IMG/VR virus record: IMGVR_UViG_3300042988_000092
Coordinates: 1 to 23,285 of that record
Length of the DNA stretch: 23,285 bases
Source of the DNA: a virus
Strand: one strand, 5' to 3'
The translations under genes and the position numbers were made by a program. The notes under the pieces were generated by a model. It saw only the letters and a program-made list of their open reading frames with translations. It was not told where the DNA came from and did not search any database. Numbering within the stretch: the first letter of the stretch is position 1; each line of letters begins with the position of its first letter. Positions 2,998-23,285 of the stretch are shown here, piece by piece.

Positions 2998-4286
2998 TCT
3001 TTGCCGTAGGCCAGAGCCTTGAGCATTTCAGGCGACAGGCCGGACAGTTGCAGGTTGTCTTGCGCCGCGGTAAATCCTGCGGGCAGCAAGCCGCCTTGCA
3101 GGTATCCGATGTCGCCGCCCTCGATTGGTTCAACTCCCAACTTCAAAAGCTCGCTGATTGTGTTGAAAGGCACGCCCATATCAAACAGCTTTTTGGCCTC
3201 GTCCAGCTTCTTGGAGTAATCCTCGCGCAAAGCCTCCACGCCACCCAAGTCGTAGTCGATGTACCACTCAGGGCCAAACTGCGCGGCCAATTGTGCGTTC
3301 AACTGCGAGCGGATCATGCGCAAAAGCGGCGTGATTGTGTCTGCCCAAAAAATCTTGCGGGCTGTCTCAATGTTCGCCAAGGTGGCGTTTTCCATGATGC
3401 CAACCATGACGGGCGGCACACCCATGGCTGAACAAATCTCCTCCCAGACCTTGGTGCGGCTGTTCACAAAGTCCAGCTCAACGGCTGACTGGTTTAAGGT
3501 CTTGATGTCGCGGGTTGTGAAGAATGGAGCGCGGGCATTGTTGCTGCTGGCTTGCTTTTCCTTGTGCAACTCACGCAAACGGCTCATTTGTTCTGCGGTT
3601 GTCTCGGGGTCGATCACAATGGCATAGTCGCTTATGCCTCGGTTGTGCATCGAGTTCAGTTGCCACTGGCTTGACTCGCGGTCAACGTCCACGGCGCGGC
3701 CAGCGGCTTGGATTGTCGGCATCCCAAAAAGGAAATCATTGGGGTTGACGGTCTTGACGTGCACCATGTCTTCTGACTGGATGTCACGCGAAACCCCGCC
3801 GTATTGGTAGCGGTAGAGTTCAACAAGGCGCGTTTTGCCTGCCTGAATCTTGATGCCTTGAGGTAGCATAGGCCAGACTTCGACGGGCGCATTTGCGTTG
3901 CCTGCGCGAATCAGCGACCAATACGAATTGCCAGCCAGGTCAATATGCTGGCTCATAAGCTCGGTCATTTCTGACCATGAAAAGTCAGGATTCGGGTTGT
4001 CGATCAGCTTTTGCAGTGGAGATTCCGGCGCTTCAACCATCGTGCCATCGCGCTGCTTTTTCTTTGCCACCCATGGGATTTGACCGACAGATTGGGCGCG
4101 GCGGTTGACGCAAGCGTAGAAGATGGCCGAGGCCTTCAGTCCTTGCTCAATCGCCACCTCTGTGTCCCACTTTTGAAACTGTGGAGCCGTGCGGCTCATG
4201 GTCATCAAAAGCTCAGGCAAAGTGACGGACTTCAACTCAACAGTTGGCGCGTTCTTGAATCGTTTGAAAAAATTGAAATCCATCAT
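2994..4286 (-). CDS. HK97-family portal protein
   Basis: The portal is the dodecameric ring at one head vertex through which terminase pumps DNA. The 430-aa protein has the usual family length and signatures: KASAIFYACVNRRAQSVGQIPW near residues 50-72, SPLQKLIDNPNPDFSWSEM around 88-106, NSYWSLIRAG, a central block with DFLFGMPTIQAAGRAVD, and ICSAMGVPPVMVGIM followed by TARKIFWADTITPLLRMI. Two adjacent ATGs are available (4286 and 4283). AAGGA lies 3 nt before the first and 6 nt before the second, so the second may be the one used. The gene begins 6 nt after the 652-aa repeat protein and ends with an ATGA overlap into the MuF-like gene. Confidence 0.94.
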   Translation of the reverse strand: MMDFNFFKRFKNAPTVELKSVTLPELLMTMSRTAPQFQKWDTEVAIEQGLKASAIFYACVNRRAQSVGQIPWVAKKKQRDGTMVEAPESPLQKLIDNPNPDFSWSEMTELMSQHIDLAGNSYWSLIRAGNANAPVEVWPMLPQGIKIQAGKTRLVELYRYQYGGVSRDIQSEDMVHVKTVNPNDFLFGMPTIQAAGRAVDVDRESSQWQLNSMHNRGISDYAIVIDPETTAEQMSRLRELHKEKQASSNNARAPFFTTRDIKTLNQSAVELDFVNSRTKVWEEICSAMGVPPVMVGIMENATLANIETARKIFWADTITPLLRMIRSQLNAQLAAQFGPEWYIDYDLGGVEALREDYSKKLDEAKKLFDMGVPFNTISELLKLGVEPIEGGDIGYLQGGLLPAGFTAAQDNLQLSGLSPEMLKALAYGKE

Positions 4287-4292
4287 GGTTCC

Positions 4293-6251
4293 TTAAAACA
4301 CTTTTGTCGAGCCGTAGTAAACGGCAGAAACGGCAGCGCTTCCATAGTAAATATCAGTGATATTCGTTGCGCCATAGTATATGGTCGAGGCGGGCGCTGC
4401 AATTTGACCATTGATGTAGCTTACGGACAAATAGTCGTTACTGCCCGCTGTGAAGCTAAGGCCCGTGTTGTTGCCTGCGTCGGTTGAGTTTGCACCTACG
4501 TTCCACGCTGTTGGTTTCTTCAGGATCGCTTGCGTGGTGTTGGTTGAACCAAGCTGCAATAGGTTTCCCAATGCGCCGCTGATCGTGAAGCTGGTGAACT
4601 CGTTGGTCGTGCCTCCAGTGAACTGGATGCGGCCAATGGCTGTGTTGGTCAGCCCTGCGAACTTGTTGGAACCTGTGACGGTCAGAGTACCCGTGCCGCC
4701 TTGGTTCAACGTTGGGTAGGTCTGGATGCCACCGCCGTTGAATGTCTTTGCCAGTGCATTCGTAAGGCTTATCGATCCGCCGCCTGAGGCCGTAACTGTT
4801 AGGTTCGTGGCGGTTGTCAACCACGCACTAGCGCCCGCCGTGGCAACAACCCAAGCGCCGCCACTGAACTTTAGATGCCTCGCCTTTGTTCCGTTGAAGT
4901 TGACACCTACTGAAGCCGCCGTGCCGGTCGTCGTTACGTTGTAGCCTGAGTCATCAAAGGTTCCACCGGTCAATACCAGCGCTGGATAACTCCCAAAGGA
5001 CGCTGCACCTGACAGCTTTACCAACCCGCCTGGAGAGTCGATAACGACGGTCATCGGGAACGCCTTGCCCGCGCTCGTAATCGTTTGGGTGCCACGTCCG
5101 GCGAAGTAAATTGTTGATATTCCAGTGACGGTAGTCCCTGTACCGTTGATCCAGTTGCCATAGATTGCAGGTGTAGTCGAACCTGTTGCCAGCGTCATCG
5201 TGTTGCTGGTGCGGGCAGACATATCAATCGTGCCGATGTTGTAGGCTGCGTTGATGGTTGTTGTCGTGCCTGTGCCTGGGCTTGTCGATGTAAAAACAGC
5301 CGTGTCTTGCGCCAACGGAAAGTTGGTCAACGCCGCTGCGCCGCCTGCCGTTGCGGCCCATGCCGTAGCAGACCAGTTATTGCTGCCAGCCAAGTTCCAA
5401 TACACCGTCTTCGCCGCATCAAACGTAATCCCGCTGTTGCCCTTGCAGTCGCCCAACCGAGTCCCGCTGACAGGAGCAGCAGCACCAGCAATGGTGATGT
5501 CACGGAAGTCGATGTCTTGCAGCGATGCAACAGCAGCGCAGGTCAGTGTGCGTGTTGTGCCGATGGTGTTTGAGCGCACGAAAGTCCGCATCGTGGCGTT
5601 GGTTCCTGCGGAGAGCGTCAGAGTGCCGTTGATAGTTTGGTCAGCATCAAATTCGATTTGTGCAATGCCTGCTGCGGTGCGCCCTGCAATTGTCAGATTG
5701 TTGAACGTGTTTGCCCCGCTGACGGTTGGCGCAGTCAAGGCTGCGCTTGTGAACGACACGTTGTAAAACGTCTTGCCACCTCCGGTCAACTTTGTAGAGC
5801 CCGCCGCAGACAAAGTGATTGATGATGTGCCGGCATTGAGCGTCAGGTTTGTGGCCGTAGTAAAAACGACACCAGTAGCTGAACTGAGCGTCACAATTGA
5901 CGATCCAAGACTGATTGTGCGTATGGCTGCGCCGCCAGACTGCAAGGACCCGGCTGCAATTGTGTAATTGTTGCTGGTGAATGTTCCTGCGGTAACTGTG
6001 ATCGACCCTGTTGTCGTGAACGCTGCTCCAAGGTTCAGTTCAATTCCTGTGTTGTTGATCGTTGTCGTGCTGACAGTCACGCCACCGTTGGTAAACGTGA
6101 CAACGCCAGTGCCCGAGTTTGCATCAAATGTTGGCGTGTCAGCCGAGCCTGGAACGGAAGCACCACCAGCGCCGCCAGACGTGGCAGACCAGTTGGCCGT
6201 GTTGCCACTGCTCCAGGTGCCTGCGCCGCCAACCCAAAAGCGTGCCGCCAT
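4293..6251 (-). CDS. Large Ser/Thr/Gly beta-repeat protein, probable virion adhesin
   Basis: This 652-aa protein is very rich in Thr, Ser, Gly, Asn and Ala, with alternating hydrophobic and polar residues as in beta-helix or beta-solenoid adhesins. A Trp-containing module appears twice: FWVGGAGTWSSGNTANWSAT at residues 5-24 and VYWNLAGSNNWSATAWA at 283-299, each followed by a Gly-rich stretch and an Asp-X-Ala/Pro-X-Phe motif. Between them lie many TxTI/LTLSAG-like strands. Residues 598-617 (LSFTAGSNDYLSVSYINGQI) resemble a segment I associate with other phage surface proteins. The C-terminus has three near-decad YYG repeats. There is no signal peptide. It is flanked by a 57-aa gene (start-stop overlap) and the portal gene. 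I infer a head-decorating fibre or receptor/adhesion protein; no experimentally known homologue is recognised. Confidence 0.75.
   Translation of the reverse strand: MAARFWVGGAGTWSSGNTANWSATSGGAGGASVPGSADTPTFDANSGTGVVTFTNGGVTVSTTTINNTGIELNLGAAFTTTGSITVTAGTFTSNNYTIAAGSLQSGGAAIRTISLGSSIVTLSSATGVVFTTATNLTLNAGTSSITLSAAGSTKLTGGGKTFYNVSFTSAALTAPTVSGANTFNNLTIAGRTAAGIAQIEFDADQTINGTLTLSAGTNATMRTFVRSNTIGTTRTLTCAAVASLQDIDFRDITIAGAAAPVSGTRLGDCKGNSGITFDAAKTVYWNLAGSNNWSATAWAATAGGAAALTNFPLAQDTAVFTSTSPGTGTTTTINAAYNIGTIDMSARTSNTMTLATGSTTPAIYGNWINGTGTTVTGISTIYFAGRGTQTITSAGKAFPMTVVIDSPGGLVKLSGAASFGSYPALVLTGGTFDDSGYNVTTTGTAASVGVNFNGTKARHLKFSGGAWVVATAGASAWLTTATNLTVTASGGGSISLTNALAKTFNGGGIQTYPTLNQGGTGTLTVTGSNKFAGLTNTAIGRIQFTGGTTNEFTSFTISGALGNLLQLGSTNTTQAILKKPTAWNVGANSTDAGNNTGLSFTAGSNDYLSVSYINGQIAAPASTIYYGATNITDIYYGSAAVSAVYYGSTKVF
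4296..4382 (-). repeat. Three tandem ~30-bp repeats encoding a YYG decad
   Basis: The last 29 codons of the 652-aa gene encode IYYGATNITD, IYYGSAAVSA and VYYGSTKVF in series. The repeat is visible in both DNA and protein, with a 10-codon period and a conserved hydrophobic-Tyr-Tyr-Gly-Ser/Ala core. Such repeats could form a short beta-stack cap or a binding tip. Confidence 0.8.
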
Positions 6252-10440: not shown

Positions 10441-10685
10441 GGCTGTATTTTTGCAGAATTGGCCGTTTGTTTTAAATTTTCACGGACAGGCTCTGTTTTT
10501 TCCAGTTCCTCAATGGCGCGTTTGCAGTAAATCGCAGCGTCCAAAAGCTCCTCATATTGGTGTTGCAGCCATTCTTTGAGGTTTAGTGGGTTTTGCTCAA
10601 TGCTGACGCCGTATTTTTCCAGGCCAAGCCGCTGGCGCTTTGCGATGTCTTGGCAGACTCTGGCTTCTGTTCCTTGGGCTGTCAT
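10437..10685 (-). CDS. Conserved small phage protein, 82 aa
   Basis: The protein has the pattern VCQDIAKRQRLGLEKYGVSI, then LKEWLQHQYEELLDAAIYCKRAIEEL, then a polar tail. I associate it with a small helical protein common in phages of Proteobacteria. The EELLDAAIY helix with spaced acidic residues is reminiscent of MazG-like nucleotide pyrophosphohydrolases, but the full metal-binding set is not evident, so no activity is assigned. It overlaps its neighbours by ATGA at both ends. Confidence 0.75.
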   Translation of the reverse strand: MTAQGTEARVCQDIAKRQRLGLEKYGVSIEQNPLNLKEWLQHQYEELLDAAIYCKRAIEELEKTEPVRENLKQTANSAKIQP

Positions 10686-11158
10686 GTCGCGTATTCTCCA
10701 TGCAATGCCTTTCTAGCTGCCGATGCCGCAAAAGCCGCAGCCTCCACTGATGCAAATGATCCTATGTGTTTTTGCCTTCCGTTTACCTTTGCGTAAGCAA
10801 TCCACTTTTTGTCTCGCTTGTGAAAGCGAACGCCCTTGATGCCGCTGGTGCTATTTGCTGGCGCTTCCCGATTGCAGACATTTTGTGAAATAGTCGCAGG
10901 ACGTAGATTATCAATGCGATTGTTAGTCTTGTTCCTGTCAATATGGTCAATCATGTCCGGCACATATCCGTGTTGAAGCAAATATATCAGACGATGTGCC
11001 GTGTAGGTTTTTCCGTTCAATGTGACATTGACATAGCCGCGACCACCAACAGCGCCAGCAGTCTTGCCAATCACTGTTGTATTGCGGCATTTCTTCCAGA
11101 TCAATTGACCATCGCAATAGTCAAAGACTTCTTGCAGTTGTTCTTGCGTAAGATTCAT
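10682..11158 (-). CDS. HNH homing-type endonuclease with AP2 domain
   Basis: This 158-aa protein has an HNH nuclease core in the order H55 (AHRLIYLLQHGY), D71-H72 (MIDHID), N80 (KTNNRIDNLR) and a QNVCNR segment. An AP2-like DNA-binding domain follows at 106-155 (GIKGVRFHKRDKKWIAYAK, HIGSFASVEAAA). Such proteins are free-standing mobile endonucleases that cut intronless targets and spread their own gene. It overlaps both neighbours by ATGA, so it has settled into the operon without disturbing flanking frames. It is clearly paralogous to the minus-to-plus partner at 22465-22953, with the H55 and D71-H72 positions coinciding, but its base composition is closer to its neighbours, suggesting an older or better-ameliorated insertion. 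Confidence 0.92.
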   Translation of the reverse strand: MNLTQEQLQEVFDYCDGQLIWKKCRNTTVIGKTAGAVGGRGYVNVTLNGKTYTAHRLIYLLQHGYVPDMIDHIDRNKTNNRIDNLRPATISQNVCNREAPANSTSGIKGVRFHKRDKKWIAYAKVNGRQKHIGSFASVEAAAFAASAARKALHGEYAT

Positions 11159-15215: not shown

Positions 15216-15883
15216 ATTCCACCTGTCAGCAAGGATGGCTGAGGCGTTGCCTGAACCTTGGCATTTCGACACCAGTTGCGCCAAGTGGCCTCCCAATCCA
15301 GCTTGGCGGCGTTTCGCCCACTTGTCGCCACCCAGTAGTCTCGAAACTTCTCGGCCTCAAGTCTGACCGTTGCTGTCTCCCAGCCCATTGTCTCCAGCGT
15401 CCACTCTCCCCATGCCTTTGGAAGTTGCCAATCAGGCGAAAGCCTTTTTCCTTTGGCCTTGCCGACAGGCGGGGCACAAATAACTGGTTCTTGGTTTATG
15501 GTTATTGGTTCTTGGTTAGGTGGCGCTTCGTTTACGGCATGTGAACGACTCGTGCTTTTTTCTTTACGCTTCGCCTCGCGTTCTTGTGCGATTCGTTTGT
15601 TTGTGTCGGCTTTTGAGTGATACTCAAGAAGCTCTGCAAGGACGCGCTCTTGCACATACTCACCGTCTGGAGACAGCGTAAAAAAGCGGCCAAGGACAAA
15701 CTTTACAGCCTCAATCTCGGCTTCAGTGCTGGCCCATGTCCATTCAATGGCTTCATCAAGTGTTGGGAATTTTTCACGGTCATAGCACGAATCAATCAGA
15801 AGCGTGTACGCTCCGTGCTGAAGCATTGATAGGCGGCCACATTTTTTGGCGTAATCGCCAAGATTTCTCTTGTAATAATGCAC
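15212..15883 (-). CDS. DUF1376-type replication protein, GTG start
   Basis: The N-terminal half matches the DUF1376/YdaU pattern: HYYKRNLGDYAKKCGRLSML, YTLLIDSCYDREKFP, and FVLGRFFTLSPDG. A Lys/Glu-rich linker and a Pro/Gln-rich stretch follow. The C-terminal half has DWQLPKAWGEWTLE, FRDYWVATSG and DWEATWRNWCRNA, the pattern seen at the end of phage helicase-loading or initiator proteins. It probably recognises the origin or recruits the helicase encoded two genes downstream. No ATG gives a sensible start. GTG at 15883 has GGAG 8 nt upstream and begins exactly at the conserved HYYKRN, giving 223 aa. An ATG at 15919 lacks a binding site. Confidence 0.85.
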   Translation of the reverse strand: MHYYKRNLGDYAKKCGRLSMLQHGAYTLLIDSCYDREKFPTLDEAIEWTWASTEAEIEAVKFVLGRFFTLSPDGEYVQERVLAELLEYHSKADTNKRIAQEREAKRKEKSTSRSHAVNEAPPNQEPITINQEPVICAPPVGKAKGKRLSPDWQLPKAWGEWTLETMGWETATVRLEAEKFRDYWVATSGRNAAKLDWEATWRNWCRNAKVQATPQPSLLTGGI

Positions 15884-15988
15884 GATGGCATCTCCGCAAA
15901 TCTCCCAGAAAAGAAACAAAGGCAGGCGGGGAGTTCGCTTTTCGGTCAGGGGATCAATCCCGACCTAGCCTCGTTTCAAATAATTCTA

Positions 15989-18755: not shown

Positions 18756-19015
18756 TCAAACCCCAGTTCTGCCTTGAAGGCAGACAATGCCATAACCAGC
18801 GCATGGGCTTGGTCATAATCCATGCAAACGTAGTTGTCCTGCTCATGTGAGCAATGCGACGGGAAACGCGCAATGTAGCCATTGCCAGTGTTTGTCAGTG
18901 CGCATCGTGTTTTGCCAGCGATTGAGTAGCCCTTGCCAGCAACAACAACGGCATTGTCCTTGTCTCGGAAAACATGGTCTTGCAGGCCTTCACAAATGAA
19001 AAGTTGCTCGTTCAT
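18752..19015 (-). CDS. Small unknown phage protein, 87 aa
   Basis: The ATG at 19015 overlaps the HTH/HNH-like gene's stop codon (ATGA) and is preceded by GGGACT; the in-frame ATG at 19027 has no better support. The protein starts MNEQLFICEGLQDHVFRDKD and has several His/Cys positions (CALTN, HCSHEQDNYVCMDYDQAHAL) and a short C-terminal helix ending FKAELGFE. The Cys/His pairs could bind metal. I do not recognise a family. Confidence 0.72.
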   Translation of the reverse strand: MNEQLFICEGLQDHVFRDKDNAVVVAGKGYSIAGKTRCALTNTGNGYIARFPSHCSHEQDNYVCMDYDQAHALVMALSAFKAELGFE

Positions 19016-19533
19016 AGTCCCGCCCATGGGTTGTTTTTGTATTGCTTGTAGCCTCTGCCGCTTCTGATTCGATTGACCACATCAAAGTTAATGCCAAGCT
19101 CACGCGCGATGCCTTTGTGCGTGCCCTCCATGCTCCTGATTTTTTCGATCAACTCAAGAGGATGCGGCGATCGCTCGCGTGCGGCCAGCGCCAGCTTGTA
19201 ATTGCGGGCTGGGTTCTTGTGATACTGCGTGCGCTTGGCTGCGTCCGCCGTCAGCATCTTGCGGGTCTTCATGGCGACGTGCCCAGGATCGACGCAAAGA
19301 GGATTGCCGCACGATGTACTAGCCAGCAAGCCATCTGTTTTCAGATTCAGCACGTTGGCAGCAATCCATCTGCGAACAGGCATCAATTTTTTATTGATGT
19401 TGATGTAAGGCACGCCAGCGACTTTACTGCTTGCTTTTGCGCCATCCCAGATCAGGCAATCGCCGTCTTCGTGGCTTTTTGATTGGATGAACTCCATGGT
19501 GATTGGCTCACCGGGTTTTCGTCTGACTTTCAT
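19012..19533 (-). CDS. HNH/HTH-like phage protein, 173 aa
   Basis: The product begins MKVRRKPGEPITMEFIQSKS. DGDCLIWDGAKASSKVAGVPY and TSCGNPLCVDPGHVAM follow; C-GNPxCVxPxH is the zinc/HNH-like core typical of a phage family. C-terminally TPLELIEKIRSMEG-like sequence and GIARELGINFDVVNRIRSGRGY form a helix-turn-helix, with RSGRGYKQYKNNPWAGL at the end. I associate this with a DNA-binding phage protein carrying a degenerate HNH fold. An in-frame ATG at 19599 would extend it through a structured inverted-repeat region with no ribosome binding site, so I chose 19533, which starts exactly at the conserved RRKPGEPIT. Whether it still cuts DNA is not clear. Confidence 0.75.
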   Translation of the reverse strand: MKVRRKPGEPITMEFIQSKSHEDGDCLIWDGAKASSKVAGVPYININKKLMPVRRWIAANVLNLKTDGLLASTSCGNPLCVDPGHVAMKTRKMLTADAAKRTQYHKNPARNYKLALAARERSPHPLELIEKIRSMEGTHKGIARELGINFDVVNRIRSGRGYKQYKNNPWAGL

Positions 19534-19547
19534 AGTGTCTTTGATTT

Positions 19548-19707
19548 GCAATTCATTGAGTGTGGCGACTGGCGCCAATCTCCAGTTTGTCCAAACCATG
19601 CGACTGAAGCCACCAAAAAGTTCCAGGAATAGTGGACGTTTCCTGTTTGGTTATGGCTTTCGCTGATTCTGACTTGGCTGTCAATAACGCCACACTTAAT
19701 GAATTGC
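19548..19707 (-). repeat. 160-bp nested inverted repeat (leader RNA or MITE-like element)
   Basis: Arms of 20 bp (19548-19567 and 19688-19707) pair with one mismatch, which is G-U on the plus strand and A-C on the minus strand. Inside, further pairs nest in order: GCCAA/TTGGC (19574-19578, 19674-19678), GCGA/TCGC (19600-19603, 19660-19663), AAGCC/GGCTT (19607-19611, 19655-19659), ACCAAA/TTTGGT (19612-19617, 19646-19651) and CAGGAA/TTCCTG (19624-19629, 19640-19645) with a 10-nt loop. That is about 46 paired positions. The element lies 14 nt upstream of the ATG at 19533 and fills almost the whole intergenic gap. No target-site duplication or U-run is visible. It may be a 5'-leader RNA, a DNA cruciform or origin-like element, or a mobile miniature element. 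Confidence 0.7.
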
Positions 19708-21790: not shown

Positions 21791-22321
21791 ATGCAAAAAA
21801 TCGCATCGGCGCTTGTCAAGGCTCAGAAGGCTTTTGGCCCAGCGCTCAAGTCGTCAACCAATCCGCATTTCAAAAGCCGCTATGCCGATCTATCGGCCTG
21901 CGTTGAGGCTGTCGTTGATTCGCTCAATGAACACGGCATCATGCTTATGCAGCCAACCCATGAATGTGAGCACGGCGTAACAGTTGAAACGCTGTTCATC
22001 CACGAATCTGGCGAGACATTCAGCGCCGGTCGTTTGCACGTTCCAGCGGCCAAGCAAGATCCGCAAGGATACGGCTCTGCGCTGACCTATGCCCGCCGTT
22101 ATTCGCTCATGTCTGCCTGCGGTATCGCGCCAGAAGATGATGATGGCAATGCGGCCAGCAAAAAAGCCCCGCCCAAAAAGGAATCTCTGACAAACGCTCG
22201 ATTTGGTCAAGCCGTGGAGCGCATCAAGGCGGGCCAATACACCACTGAAAAACTGCGCGATACATTCGCACTCACGGCAGAGCAAGAGTCTGCACTTGTG
22301 GAGGCGCTCGCAAATGCTTGA
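21791..22321 (+). CDS. erf: ERF-family single-strand annealing protein
   Basis: This 176-aa protein belongs to the ERF superfamily, recombinases that anneal complementary strands (P22 Erf-like, analogous to lambda Bet). Typical segments are MQKIASALVKAQKAFGPAL, STNPHFKSRYADLSACVEAV, FIHESGETFSAGRLH and the diagnostic KQDPQGYGSALTYARRYSLM / CGIAPEDDDGNA. The C-terminal 45 residues are a charged linker and a small helical domain. The stop codon overlaps the start of the original exonuclease frame (ATG at 22314), showing that the two genes were once a coupled pair. It is the first plus-strand gene after the divergent control region; the ribosome binding site is weak (GAAAG). Confidence 0.94.
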   Translation: MQKIASALVKAQKAFGPALKSSTNPHFKSRYADLSACVEAVVDSLNEHGIMLMQPTHECEHGVTVETLFIHESGETFSAGRLHVPAAKQDPQGYGSALTYARRYSLMSACGIAPEDDDGNAASKKAPPKKESLTNARFGQAVERIKAGQYTTEKLRDTFALTAEQESALVEALANA

Positions 22322-22373
22322 CCATAAATTGATCTTTCGCGCATCGGCGCTGGCCGATGTGATGTTAAAATAA
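22314..22373 (+). pseudogene. Remnant of the original exonuclease 5' end
   Basis: The frame opens with ATG at 22314, overlapping the ERF stop, and reads MLDHKLIFRASALADVMLK before TAA at 22371-22373. Its IFRASALADVM corresponds residue for residue to KFRASSLAEIM at the start of the intact exonuclease frame (22955). The DNA is GC-richer than the copy downstream (CGC GCA TCG GCG CTG against AGA GCA TCA TCT TTG). It is therefore the left stump of the gene that the HNH insertion interrupted. Homology ends right after the Met, where the inserted sequence begins. Confidence 0.75.
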
Positions 22374-22376
22374 GGC

Positions 22377-22440
22377 GTGGCTACCTTTAGCGGGGGAAAA
22401 GGCGATTCGTTACCGCCCTGCCACATCTTCACAGTAACGA
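22377..22440 (+). promoter_or_regulatory. Structured leader before the inserted HNH gene
   Basis: Between the remnant and the HNH gene are about 90 nt with local symmetry: GTGGC/GCCAC (22377-22381, 22420-22424) and TCGTTAC/GTAACGA (22407-22413, 22434-22440). These two pairings overlap and cannot form together, which could act as a switch or simply reflect chance. The stretch is GC-richer than the HNH gene that follows. AGG lies 7 nt before the ATG at 22465. Confidence 0.35.
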
Positions 22441-22464
22441 TTTCCACCAATAACGAGGTGCGAC

Positions 22465-22953
22465 ATGATTACCCATCAAGAAGTTTTAGAAACGTTTGAT
22501 TACGTTGAAGGTTTCTTATATTGGAAAAAAACATTATCCAATAGAGCAATAAAAGGAACAAAAATTTACGGAACAAATCCGCATGGATATGTTCAGCTAG
22601 GATTTAAAAATAAAAAAAGATTAGCTCATAGAATAATTTTTATGATGCATCATGGATATATCCCAGAAACAATAGATCATATAAACGGTATAAAAAACGA
22701 CAACAGAATAGAAAATTTGCGAGATGTTGAAACATATCAAAATTGTTGCAATAGGCTTCCAAGATTTAATGATTTGGAATACAAGGGAGTTTCATTTCAT
22801 AAATATTCAAATAAATGGAGAGCAAGAATAAGATTCAAAGGCAAAGAAATTTGCATTGGATATTTTAAAAATAAAGACGATGCAGCAAAAGCATATGTAA
22901 CAAAAGCAATTGAACTGCAAAAAGAATTTTCTATATATGAATCAAGGAAATAA
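22465..22953 (+). CDS. AT-rich HNH homing-type endonuclease with AP2 domain
   Basis: This 162-aa protein has an HNH core colinear with the 10682-11158 gene: H55 (AHRIIFMMHHGY), D71-H72 (TIDHIN), N80 (KNDNRIENLR) and a QNCCNR segment. An AP2-like domain follows (YKGVSFHKYSNKWRARI, CIGYFKNKDDAAKAY). Such proteins cut specific sites and spread their own gene. Composition is foreign: 28% GC in the 120 bases I counted (22501-22620) against 58% in 60 bases of erf. It lies inside the former start of the exonuclease gene. The gene's end (AAGGAAATAAA) supplies the ribosome binding site for the exonuclease ATG 1 nt downstream, so the insertion preserved expression. Confidence 0.93.
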   Translation: MITHQEVLETFDYVEGFLYWKKTLSNRAIKGTKIYGTNPHGYVQLGFKNKKRLAHRIIFMMHHGYIPETIDHINGIKNDNRIENLRDVETYQNCCNRLPRFNDLEYKGVSFHKYSNKWRARIRFKGKEICIGYFKNKDDAAKAYVTKAIELQKEFSIYESRK

Positions 22954-22954
22954 A

Positions 22955-23285
22955 ATGAAATTTAGAGCATCATCTTTGGCTGAAATAATGTCAGATCCTC
23001 GCGCAAAAGGAGAGACGTTATCAGTTGGGGCCAAAACAGCAATTTATAAAATGGCGCGTGAATTTGTCTATGGATATGACGAGCGCGTCACCAGCAAGCC
23101 AATGACCAAGGGCATCCAGTGTGAAGACCAGTCCATTGAACTGCTCAATTCAGTGCTGTTTGCCAGCCACACAAAGAACACAGAGCGCAAAACAAACGAA
23201 TGGATCACTGGCGAGTGCGACATCTTCACCGGCTCCAAAATAATTGACATCAAGTCGTCGTGGTCGCTTGCCACGTTCCCGGCGC
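22955..23285 (+). CDS. YqaJ-like viral exonuclease, 5' part
   Basis: The open frame from 22955 reaches the window edge (110 codons visible). The sequence MKFRASSLAEIMSDPRAKGE, KPMTKGIQCEDQSIELLNSV and WITGECDIFTG with IIDIKSSWSLATFPA has the pattern of the YqaJ/lambda-exonuclease-like family, which resects dsDNA ends 5' to 3' so that ERF can anneal strands. GECD and DIKSS are the PD-(D/E)XK active-site segments. AAGGA precedes the ATG. The first 30 or so codons are AT-rich like the upstream HNH gene and change to the GC-richer local style by about 23045-23060, so this 5' end seems to have arrived with the insertion. Confidence 0.9.
   Translation, partial: MKFRASSLAEIMSDPRAKGETLSVGAKTAIYKMAREFVYGYDERVTSKPMTKGIQCEDQSIELLNSVLFASHTKNTERKTNEWITGECDIFTGSKIIDIKSSWSLATFPA

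Follow-up and report, generated by a model that had tools for sequence, protein, structure and literature searches.

The closest precedent for the arrangement described here is provided by the mORF hybrids of fungal mitochondria, which are known from atp6 of Allomyces and from atp6, atp9, cox2 and nad3 of Glomus (PMC3630166). In these an endonuclease gene is accompanied by a C-terminus of foreign origin, the native one being displaced, and the displaced native end is closer to the relatives than is the inserted copy (91-98% versus 64-81% nucleotide identity; PMC3630166). A second comparable system is the intronless homing of T-even phages, typified by SegF, SegG and MobE, for which the part of PMC2988022 drawn on here describes free-standing endonuclease genes, co-conversion of their flanks, and ribosome-binding sites of several endonucleases lying within RNA structure; seven free-standing cassettes of T4 are described there as promoter-less. 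A stump combined with a replaced gene start is not among the arrangements described for T-even endonucleases in that part of the source, nor is one mentioned in the excerpts used of a survey of Skunavirus HNH genes (PMC12724721) and of a study of nuclease genes at exchange boundaries (PMC10448857).

Two RNA families also enter the comparison. The int-alpA RNA (RF02996) is typed in Rfam as an sRNA gene, its name referring to int and alpA. The C4 (RF01695) and CI RNAs possess an exposed antisense element, which has two target sites on the same transcript.

Analysis of a viral contig of 23,285 nucleotides (IMG/VR record IMGVR_UViG_3300042988_000092, positions 1 to 23,285; this whole stretch is termed the window below) revealed an exonuclease gene which is interrupted shortly after its overlap with the upstream erf gene. 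The insert spans 22365 to about 23077 and comprises a -10-like box, an RNA leader, an HNH gene and a diverged exonuclease 5' end, giving the following order of features:

21791 to 22321, + strand: erf, coding for an Erf-like ssDNA annealing protein (Pfam ERF 5.6e-24; phrog_2324 1.2e-44)
22314 to 22373, + strand: stump of the native exonuclease start, MLDHKLIFRASALADVMLK followed by a stop, matching the start in L002-L009
22366 to 22371, + strand: -10-like box TAAAAT at the left insert edge, with TGT before it (extended -10 form; consensus match only)
22374 to 22439, + strand: int-alpA-class RNA leader, P1 enclosing P2 and P3 (Rfam RF02996; covariation in P1 and P3)
22465 to 22953, + strand: HNH_3/AP2 endonuclease gene, 28% GC, GC3 0.19 (Pfam and PHROG matches)
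22944 to 22948, + strand: Shine-Dalgarno AAGGA of the new exonuclease, within the HNH 3' end (by inspection)
22955 to 23077, + strand: foreign replacement exonuclease 5' end, 39% GC, GC3 0.27, of low identity to local alleles
23078 to 23285, + strand: native exonuclease remainder, of high identity to local alleles and extending beyond the window end

The erf stop codon (TGA, 22319-22321) overlaps the ATG at 22314 of a short ORF that ends in TAA (22371-22373). All eight IMG/VR loci that serve as local alleles (L002-L009) continue uninterrupted from erf into the exonuclease through the same stop/start overlap (gcaaATGCTTGA), and the N-terminus at this overlap, MLDHK[LI]IFRAS followed by variants of xLADIM, is the true start of their exonucleases, which are 85-90% identical to that of the window over residues 3-110. 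As these loci carry the stump sequence as the start of an uninterrupted exonuclease, the stump in the window is the native exonuclease start. At the DNA level it is identical to the local alleles at 25-27 of 36 nucleotides, 6 of those nucleotides lying already beyond the insertion point. Comparison with L004 gave 25-30 matches per 30 positions across the 330 nucleotides ending at the insertion point, and the correspondence is lost directly after 22364. Native DNA in the stump ends at this position; the last two sense codons and the stop are derived from the insert, with the -10-like box encoding the last sense codons and the first base of the stop. The insert, being present in the window and absent from L002-L009, thus constitutes a presence/absence polymorphism at one site among close relatives. 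One of these relatives, L002, has an in-frame stop in its exonuclease frame (3001-3324; GIQC*DQSIE), which might be a true nonsense mutation or a sequencing error.

The product of the HNH gene matches Pfam HNH_3 (4.8e-15, 55.4 bits against a cut-off of 24.8) and phrog_99 (4.5e-56), with a weak AP2 match (1.9e-4) that lies under the curated cut-off of that family. One base past its stop the exonuclease restarts at 22955, opening with MKFRASSLAEIM and matching the exonuclease family phrog_5715 (3.7e-36). In a codon-by-codon comparison, with codons numbered from FRAS, the identity of the new 5' end (codons 0-38) to L002-L009 was 59-64%, or about 61%; from codon 39 on the exonuclease is 88-95% identical to L002-L006 and L008 and 83-86% identical to L007 and L009; L002-L006 and L008 have a mean identity among themselves of 91% in both the 5' part and the remainder. 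The breakpoint between foreign and native sequence is sharp, at about 23077/23078, 39 codons in, and past it the exonuclease has 53% GC and a GC3 of 0.74. The rise in GC3 from the HNH gene (0.19) through the new 5' segment (0.27) to the remainder of the exonuclease (0.74) fits an AT-rich donor. The donor itself was not found, given that the closest known relatives of the new 5' segment (L198-L200; FRASSLAEIM...KMAREFVYGYD) reach merely 67% nucleotide identity.

Much of this architecture had been recognized in a first-pass annotation, which reported the erf overlap, the stump ORF, the HNH gene and the second exonuclease start with the right coordinates, and anticipated uninterrupted relatives in which erf overlaps an exonuclease beginning with a FRAS-LA-M segment; both the overlap and the segment are present in L002-L009. 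Its remark that the stump and the new start use different codons is borne out, 20 of 30 nucleotides being common to the two. Likewise, its proposals of an AT-rich source for the HNH gene and exonuclease 5' end, of recombination within the exonuclease, and of a new ribosome-binding site for the restored gene agree with the GC3 values, the nucleotide mosaic at about 23077 and the AAGGA at 22944-22948, respectively. The AT-rich block does run into the exonuclease as it had stated, but for 39 rather than about 30 codons. The leader that it noted before the HNH gene is also present, but instead of a plain spacer it is a structured RNA which, together with the -10-like box, is new relative to that annotation.

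Two further HNH-like genes are encoded by the window on the opposite strand. The first (10682-11158, - strand) is a second HNH_3/AP2 gene that overlaps the genes on either side by 4 nucleotides and lacks an int-alpA-class leader; it has the appearance of a further insertion between coupled genes. The second (19012-19599, - strand; phrog_826, phrog_1872) overlaps the next gene by 16 nucleotides.

The leader of the window belongs to the int-alpA class by a narrow pass (36.1 bits against the RF02996 gathering score of 35.8); many related leaders exceed this score, reaching up to 66.1 bits. The covariance model of C4 gave no match at the window leader. P4 cI was considered as an origin of int-alpA and rejected, the P4 cI region matching C4 and not int-alpA. 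An exact 22-mer of the window leader is present in 89 viral contig stretches, where the ORFs that follow the leader are of two kinds, replication genes (mostly DUF1376-like, MHYYxFNIGDY) and endonuclease-type genes. The 3' end characteristic of the latter leaders (CCACCAATRAYGAGGTGCGAYATG) is found in 61 stretches, and the 39 distinct leader-borne proteins include 28 with HNH_3 and 3 with NUMOD4. Many members of the class are preceded, about 15-21 nucleotides 5' of the leader CTA, by a TAAAAT or TATAAT-like box. A relaxed int-alpA pattern recovered loci (L296-L413) in which, among the matches listed, int-alpA-class leaders that have sites complementary to their loop stand before phage genes of very diverse kinds, replication and endonuclease genes being only some of them. 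Nearly all leader-HNH units derive from viral contigs of environmental origin; the pattern of the endonuclease-type 3' end had no match in reference bacterial genomes, named phage isolates yielded one short leader match (MW202520.1), and no leader was recovered by Rfam at gathering in the 20 loci scanned among the HNH protein-search relatives L082-L106. The window itself carries a second int-alpA-class leader (15880-15985, - strand), found by pattern and lying under the Rfam gathering score, which precedes its DUF1376-like replication gene (GTG start, VHYYKRNLGDYAKK); the loop of that leader is CTCCC with the partner GGGAG, unlike the loop of the HNH leader.

Within and downstream of the HNH leader the following elements can be distinguished:

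22408 to 22413, + strand: P3 loop CGTTAC, the proposed antisense element, covarying with both downstream targets
22434 to 22439, + strand: target 1, GTAACG, complementary to the P3 loop (covariation, helix 4)
22445 to 22460, + strand: putative hairpin CACC-AATAACGA-GGTG with target 2 and the HNH Shine-Dalgarno (by inspection)
22452 to 22455, + strand: target 2, AACG (covariation with the P3 loop)
22455 to 22460, + strand: HNH Shine-Dalgarno GAGGTG, adjoining target 2

Since stump and leader folded together display no unusual stability (z -0.12), the case for a structured RNA is made by covariation and complementarity. Across 54 leaders, P1-P3 and the helix of the loop with downstream sequence have 98.5% paired cells and a covariation of 0.280 (0.136 when shuffled; reached by 0 of 500 shuffles), and slid versions of the structure attain 0.103 at most. 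P2 says little in this respect, being near-invariant because the leaders were selected by their P2 stretch. The helix between loop and target 1 (helix 4) has 96% of its cells paired, with changes on both sides in 5 of 6 pairs; that between loop and target 2 has 97% paired and a covariation of 0.482 (0.246 when shuffled; again 0 of 500 reach it). The counts for both targets derive largely from two loop types, CGTTAC and CATCAC, and contain noise from one row (row 54 of alignment A1, the DUF1376 leader of the window) misaligned by MAFFT. A comparison of 57 distinct loops is for these reasons more telling. This set was assembled with one leader per loop from a relaxed pattern that leaves the loop and downstream sequence free (among the matches listed) and from other leaders. 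Among these matches, at least one complementary 5-mer is present downstream of 50 of the 57 loops, as against 16.5 expected with loops swapped (maximum 28), and at least two downstream of 32, as against 3.0 (maximum 9). Judged by these sequence comparisons, the leader is an RNA with a predicted antisense loop and two targets. In the small sample of contigs from which two leaders were read, the loops differ in 4 of 4 (the window, L120, L127 and L183); L127 has two leader-HNH units (3407-3496 and 5951-6046), with loop types AACCAC and CATCAC.

Gene ends flanking leader-HNH units are similarly replaced in other genes. In L275, L294 and L295 the start of rusA (MHVTFQVEGTPVGKG or MHITFKVEATPVGKG) is cut and runs into the -10 box of the leader, and in L275 and L295 a new rusA start past the HNH gene (MTFSVTFSVEATPVGKQ or MTFAVTFSVEGNPVGKQ) leads back to the local rusA. 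L451 has the same stump and leader, at which point its sequence stops; L168 has a rusA-like stump in a contig ending within the HNH gene, and L136, whose stump is 9 nucleotides at most, was left out. Intact rusA alleles (L452-L456) establish that the stump sequence is the true start. Against these alleles the new 5' segment has roughly 40-80% identity per 18-nucleotide block over the first 54 nucleotides, past which identity to the nearest alleles is mostly above 80%. The mirror image, with a replaced 3' end, is seen in a Ref-like gene of L114, L116 and L263: the upstream copy ends GIHGMGT[NK]AFERHYNITQKELLQWVL, and a native 3' remnant persists past the HNH gene, GSKGFVDYYDITQQELLEWTLNKI, a sequence that forms the intact end in L290 and L293. 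Most other leader-HNH units occupy positions between genes without disturbing their neighbors: the preceding gene stops at the -10 box or close to it, and the HNH gene stops at the start codon of the following gene or close to it. Stump-forming events are hence a minority. Weak candidate duplications in L183, L282, L265 and others were dropped on account of internal stops or wrong frames.

The earlier suggestion that an endonuclease gene can be inserted without killing its host gene is thus strengthened, the same outcome being seen in rusA with independent intact alleles and, mirrored, at the Ref-like 3' end. Of the other phages with the same HNH gene and exonuclease start that it proposed to look for, none was found among loci L002-L081, L197-L253 and L415-L450, where no HNH gene immediately precedes the exonuclease. 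In L038, L042, L043, L054 and L081 HNH genes do lie about 600-2000 bases beyond the end of the exonuclease match, in L038, L042 and L043 near the far end of the exonuclease, a pattern which suggests that both borders of the exonuclease are invaded.

We consider it likely that these structures result from intronless homing accompanied by replacement of a gene end, in which the leader-HNH unit enters, a stump is left, a 5' end is imported and the leader limits translation. The locus combines an endonuclease domain in an open gene, a presence/absence polymorphism, a converted right flank and the lack of an intron match, which are the criteria used for homing endonucleases. The free-standing unit would consist of the -10-like promoter box, the int-alpA-class leader and the HNH_3/AP2 gene. 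Its enzyme would have cut the exonuclease gene of a phage near codon 17-18, and the template for repair would have been a donor carrying the unit immediately before a diverged exonuclease gene rich in A+T. The right side would have been closed by homologous recombination about 40 codons downstream of the exonuclease start, which exchanged the native 5' end for that of the donor; on the left, the unit would have been attached to the broken end without homology, so that 17 native codons persist as a stump behind erf. This direction and order of events are likewise presumed. The replacement start would keep the exonuclease whole and supply its new ribosome-binding site; it probably also removes the cleavage site and, being diverged around the presumed cut, may resist the enzyme. 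The leader probably limits HNH translation, its P3 loop having two predicted pairing sites further along, of which the second adjoins the Shine-Dalgarno. More generally, the HNH enzyme might cut an intact allele shortly inside the gene that adjoins the HNH gene in the donor.

Alternatively, the HNH gene might have been a passive passenger, moved with the neighboring gene start by the illegitimate exchange at gene borders that is typical of phage mosaicism, its endonuclease being inactive in the event. Phage genomes do exchange blocks, with nuclease genes reported at exchange boundaries in the excerpt of PMC10448857 used here, and cleavage by the HNH enzyme is at this locus a presumed step. However, such exchange does not readily explain the recurrence of stumps at conserved codons close to where two unrelated genes, the exonuclease and rusA, begin, the junction with a leader-HNH unit falling in either case at the -10-like box of that unit, and we regard it as unlikely. 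The presence of the segment in two copies could also mean that the exonuclease 5' end was duplicated locally in tandem, on either side of the HNH gene, and that the copies then diverged. This is very improbable, as the stump matches the local alleles whereas the new segment has a higher A+T content and an identity to those alleles of about 61%, and divergence in place would not stop sharply at 23078, where 88-95% identity resumes. An assembly chimera of two phage genomes, which deserves mention in that the exonuclease case comes from one metagenomic contig, is more improbable still, given that reading frames and ribosome-binding sites are intact where the parts join and that four contigs (L275, L294, L295 and L451) have a parallel stump-leader structure at rusA. 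Finally, the location of the HNH gene inside a gene might recall a group I intron spliced out to join stump and exonuclease, an explanation that can practically be dismissed because no Rfam intron family (E up to 10) and no group I intron core was found over 22200-23285, the RNA found is int-alpA, and the copy past the HNH gene possesses a start of its own and contains the stump codons again, so that splicing would not simply restore the gene.

Intronless homing with replacement of a gene end would imply that a parasitic gene for a DNA-cutting enzyme can invade a pair of tightly coupled genes while the host gene survives, by bringing along a diverged copy of the end that it damages, and this imported end may also protect against the parasite's own enzyme. 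This solution, already known from fungal mitochondria at the 3' ends of genes, is here encountered in no fewer than three phage genes, 5' as well as 3' ends being affected, and the intact alleles offer direct substrates for cleavage. The int-alpA RNA, named after its neighbors, thereby gains a specific, testable mechanism, albeit a predicted one. A more speculative possibility, which we put forward tentatively, is that such units are widespread selfish phage endonucleases, whose equipment comprises a promoter, an int-alpA-class leader serving as self-targeting antisense RNA, and a spare end for the gene invaded, and that the loop acts as an incompatibility type by which a resident unit or replication gene silences incomers with the same loop, as do the P4 CI and P1 C4 RNAs.

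In its closing helix with two hairpins, its putative antisense loop and its two predicted targets, the leader is reminiscent of C4 and the P4 CI RNA; it resembles their logic and is not a C4 member, P4, as positive control, matching C4 where the leader does not. With int-alpA it shares the structure and conserved blocks, but in contrast to the Rfam typing it occurs before HNH, DUF1376-like replication and many other phage genes, and has a loop with two downstream targets. As in the intronless homing of T-even phages, insofar as the part of that account used here describes it, the unit is free-standing and its flank converted, and the ribosome-binding site of the endonuclease lies in a putative RNA hairpin; unlike the T4 cassettes described there as promoter-less, units of the window type appear to carry a promoter box and an int-alpA-class leader. 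The nearest likeness is to the mORF hybrids, since the window, rusA and Ref-like cases all have a foreign gene end and a displaced native end around an endonuclease gene. The Ref-like cases correspond to the described mORF form, with a replaced C-terminus. The window and rusA cases differ from it in being phage cases in which the N-terminus is the replaced end and the endonuclease gene is of the HNH type and accompanied by a structured RNA leader. Thus, the window works like a mORF hybrid yet departs from the described form, of which it is the N-terminal counterpart.
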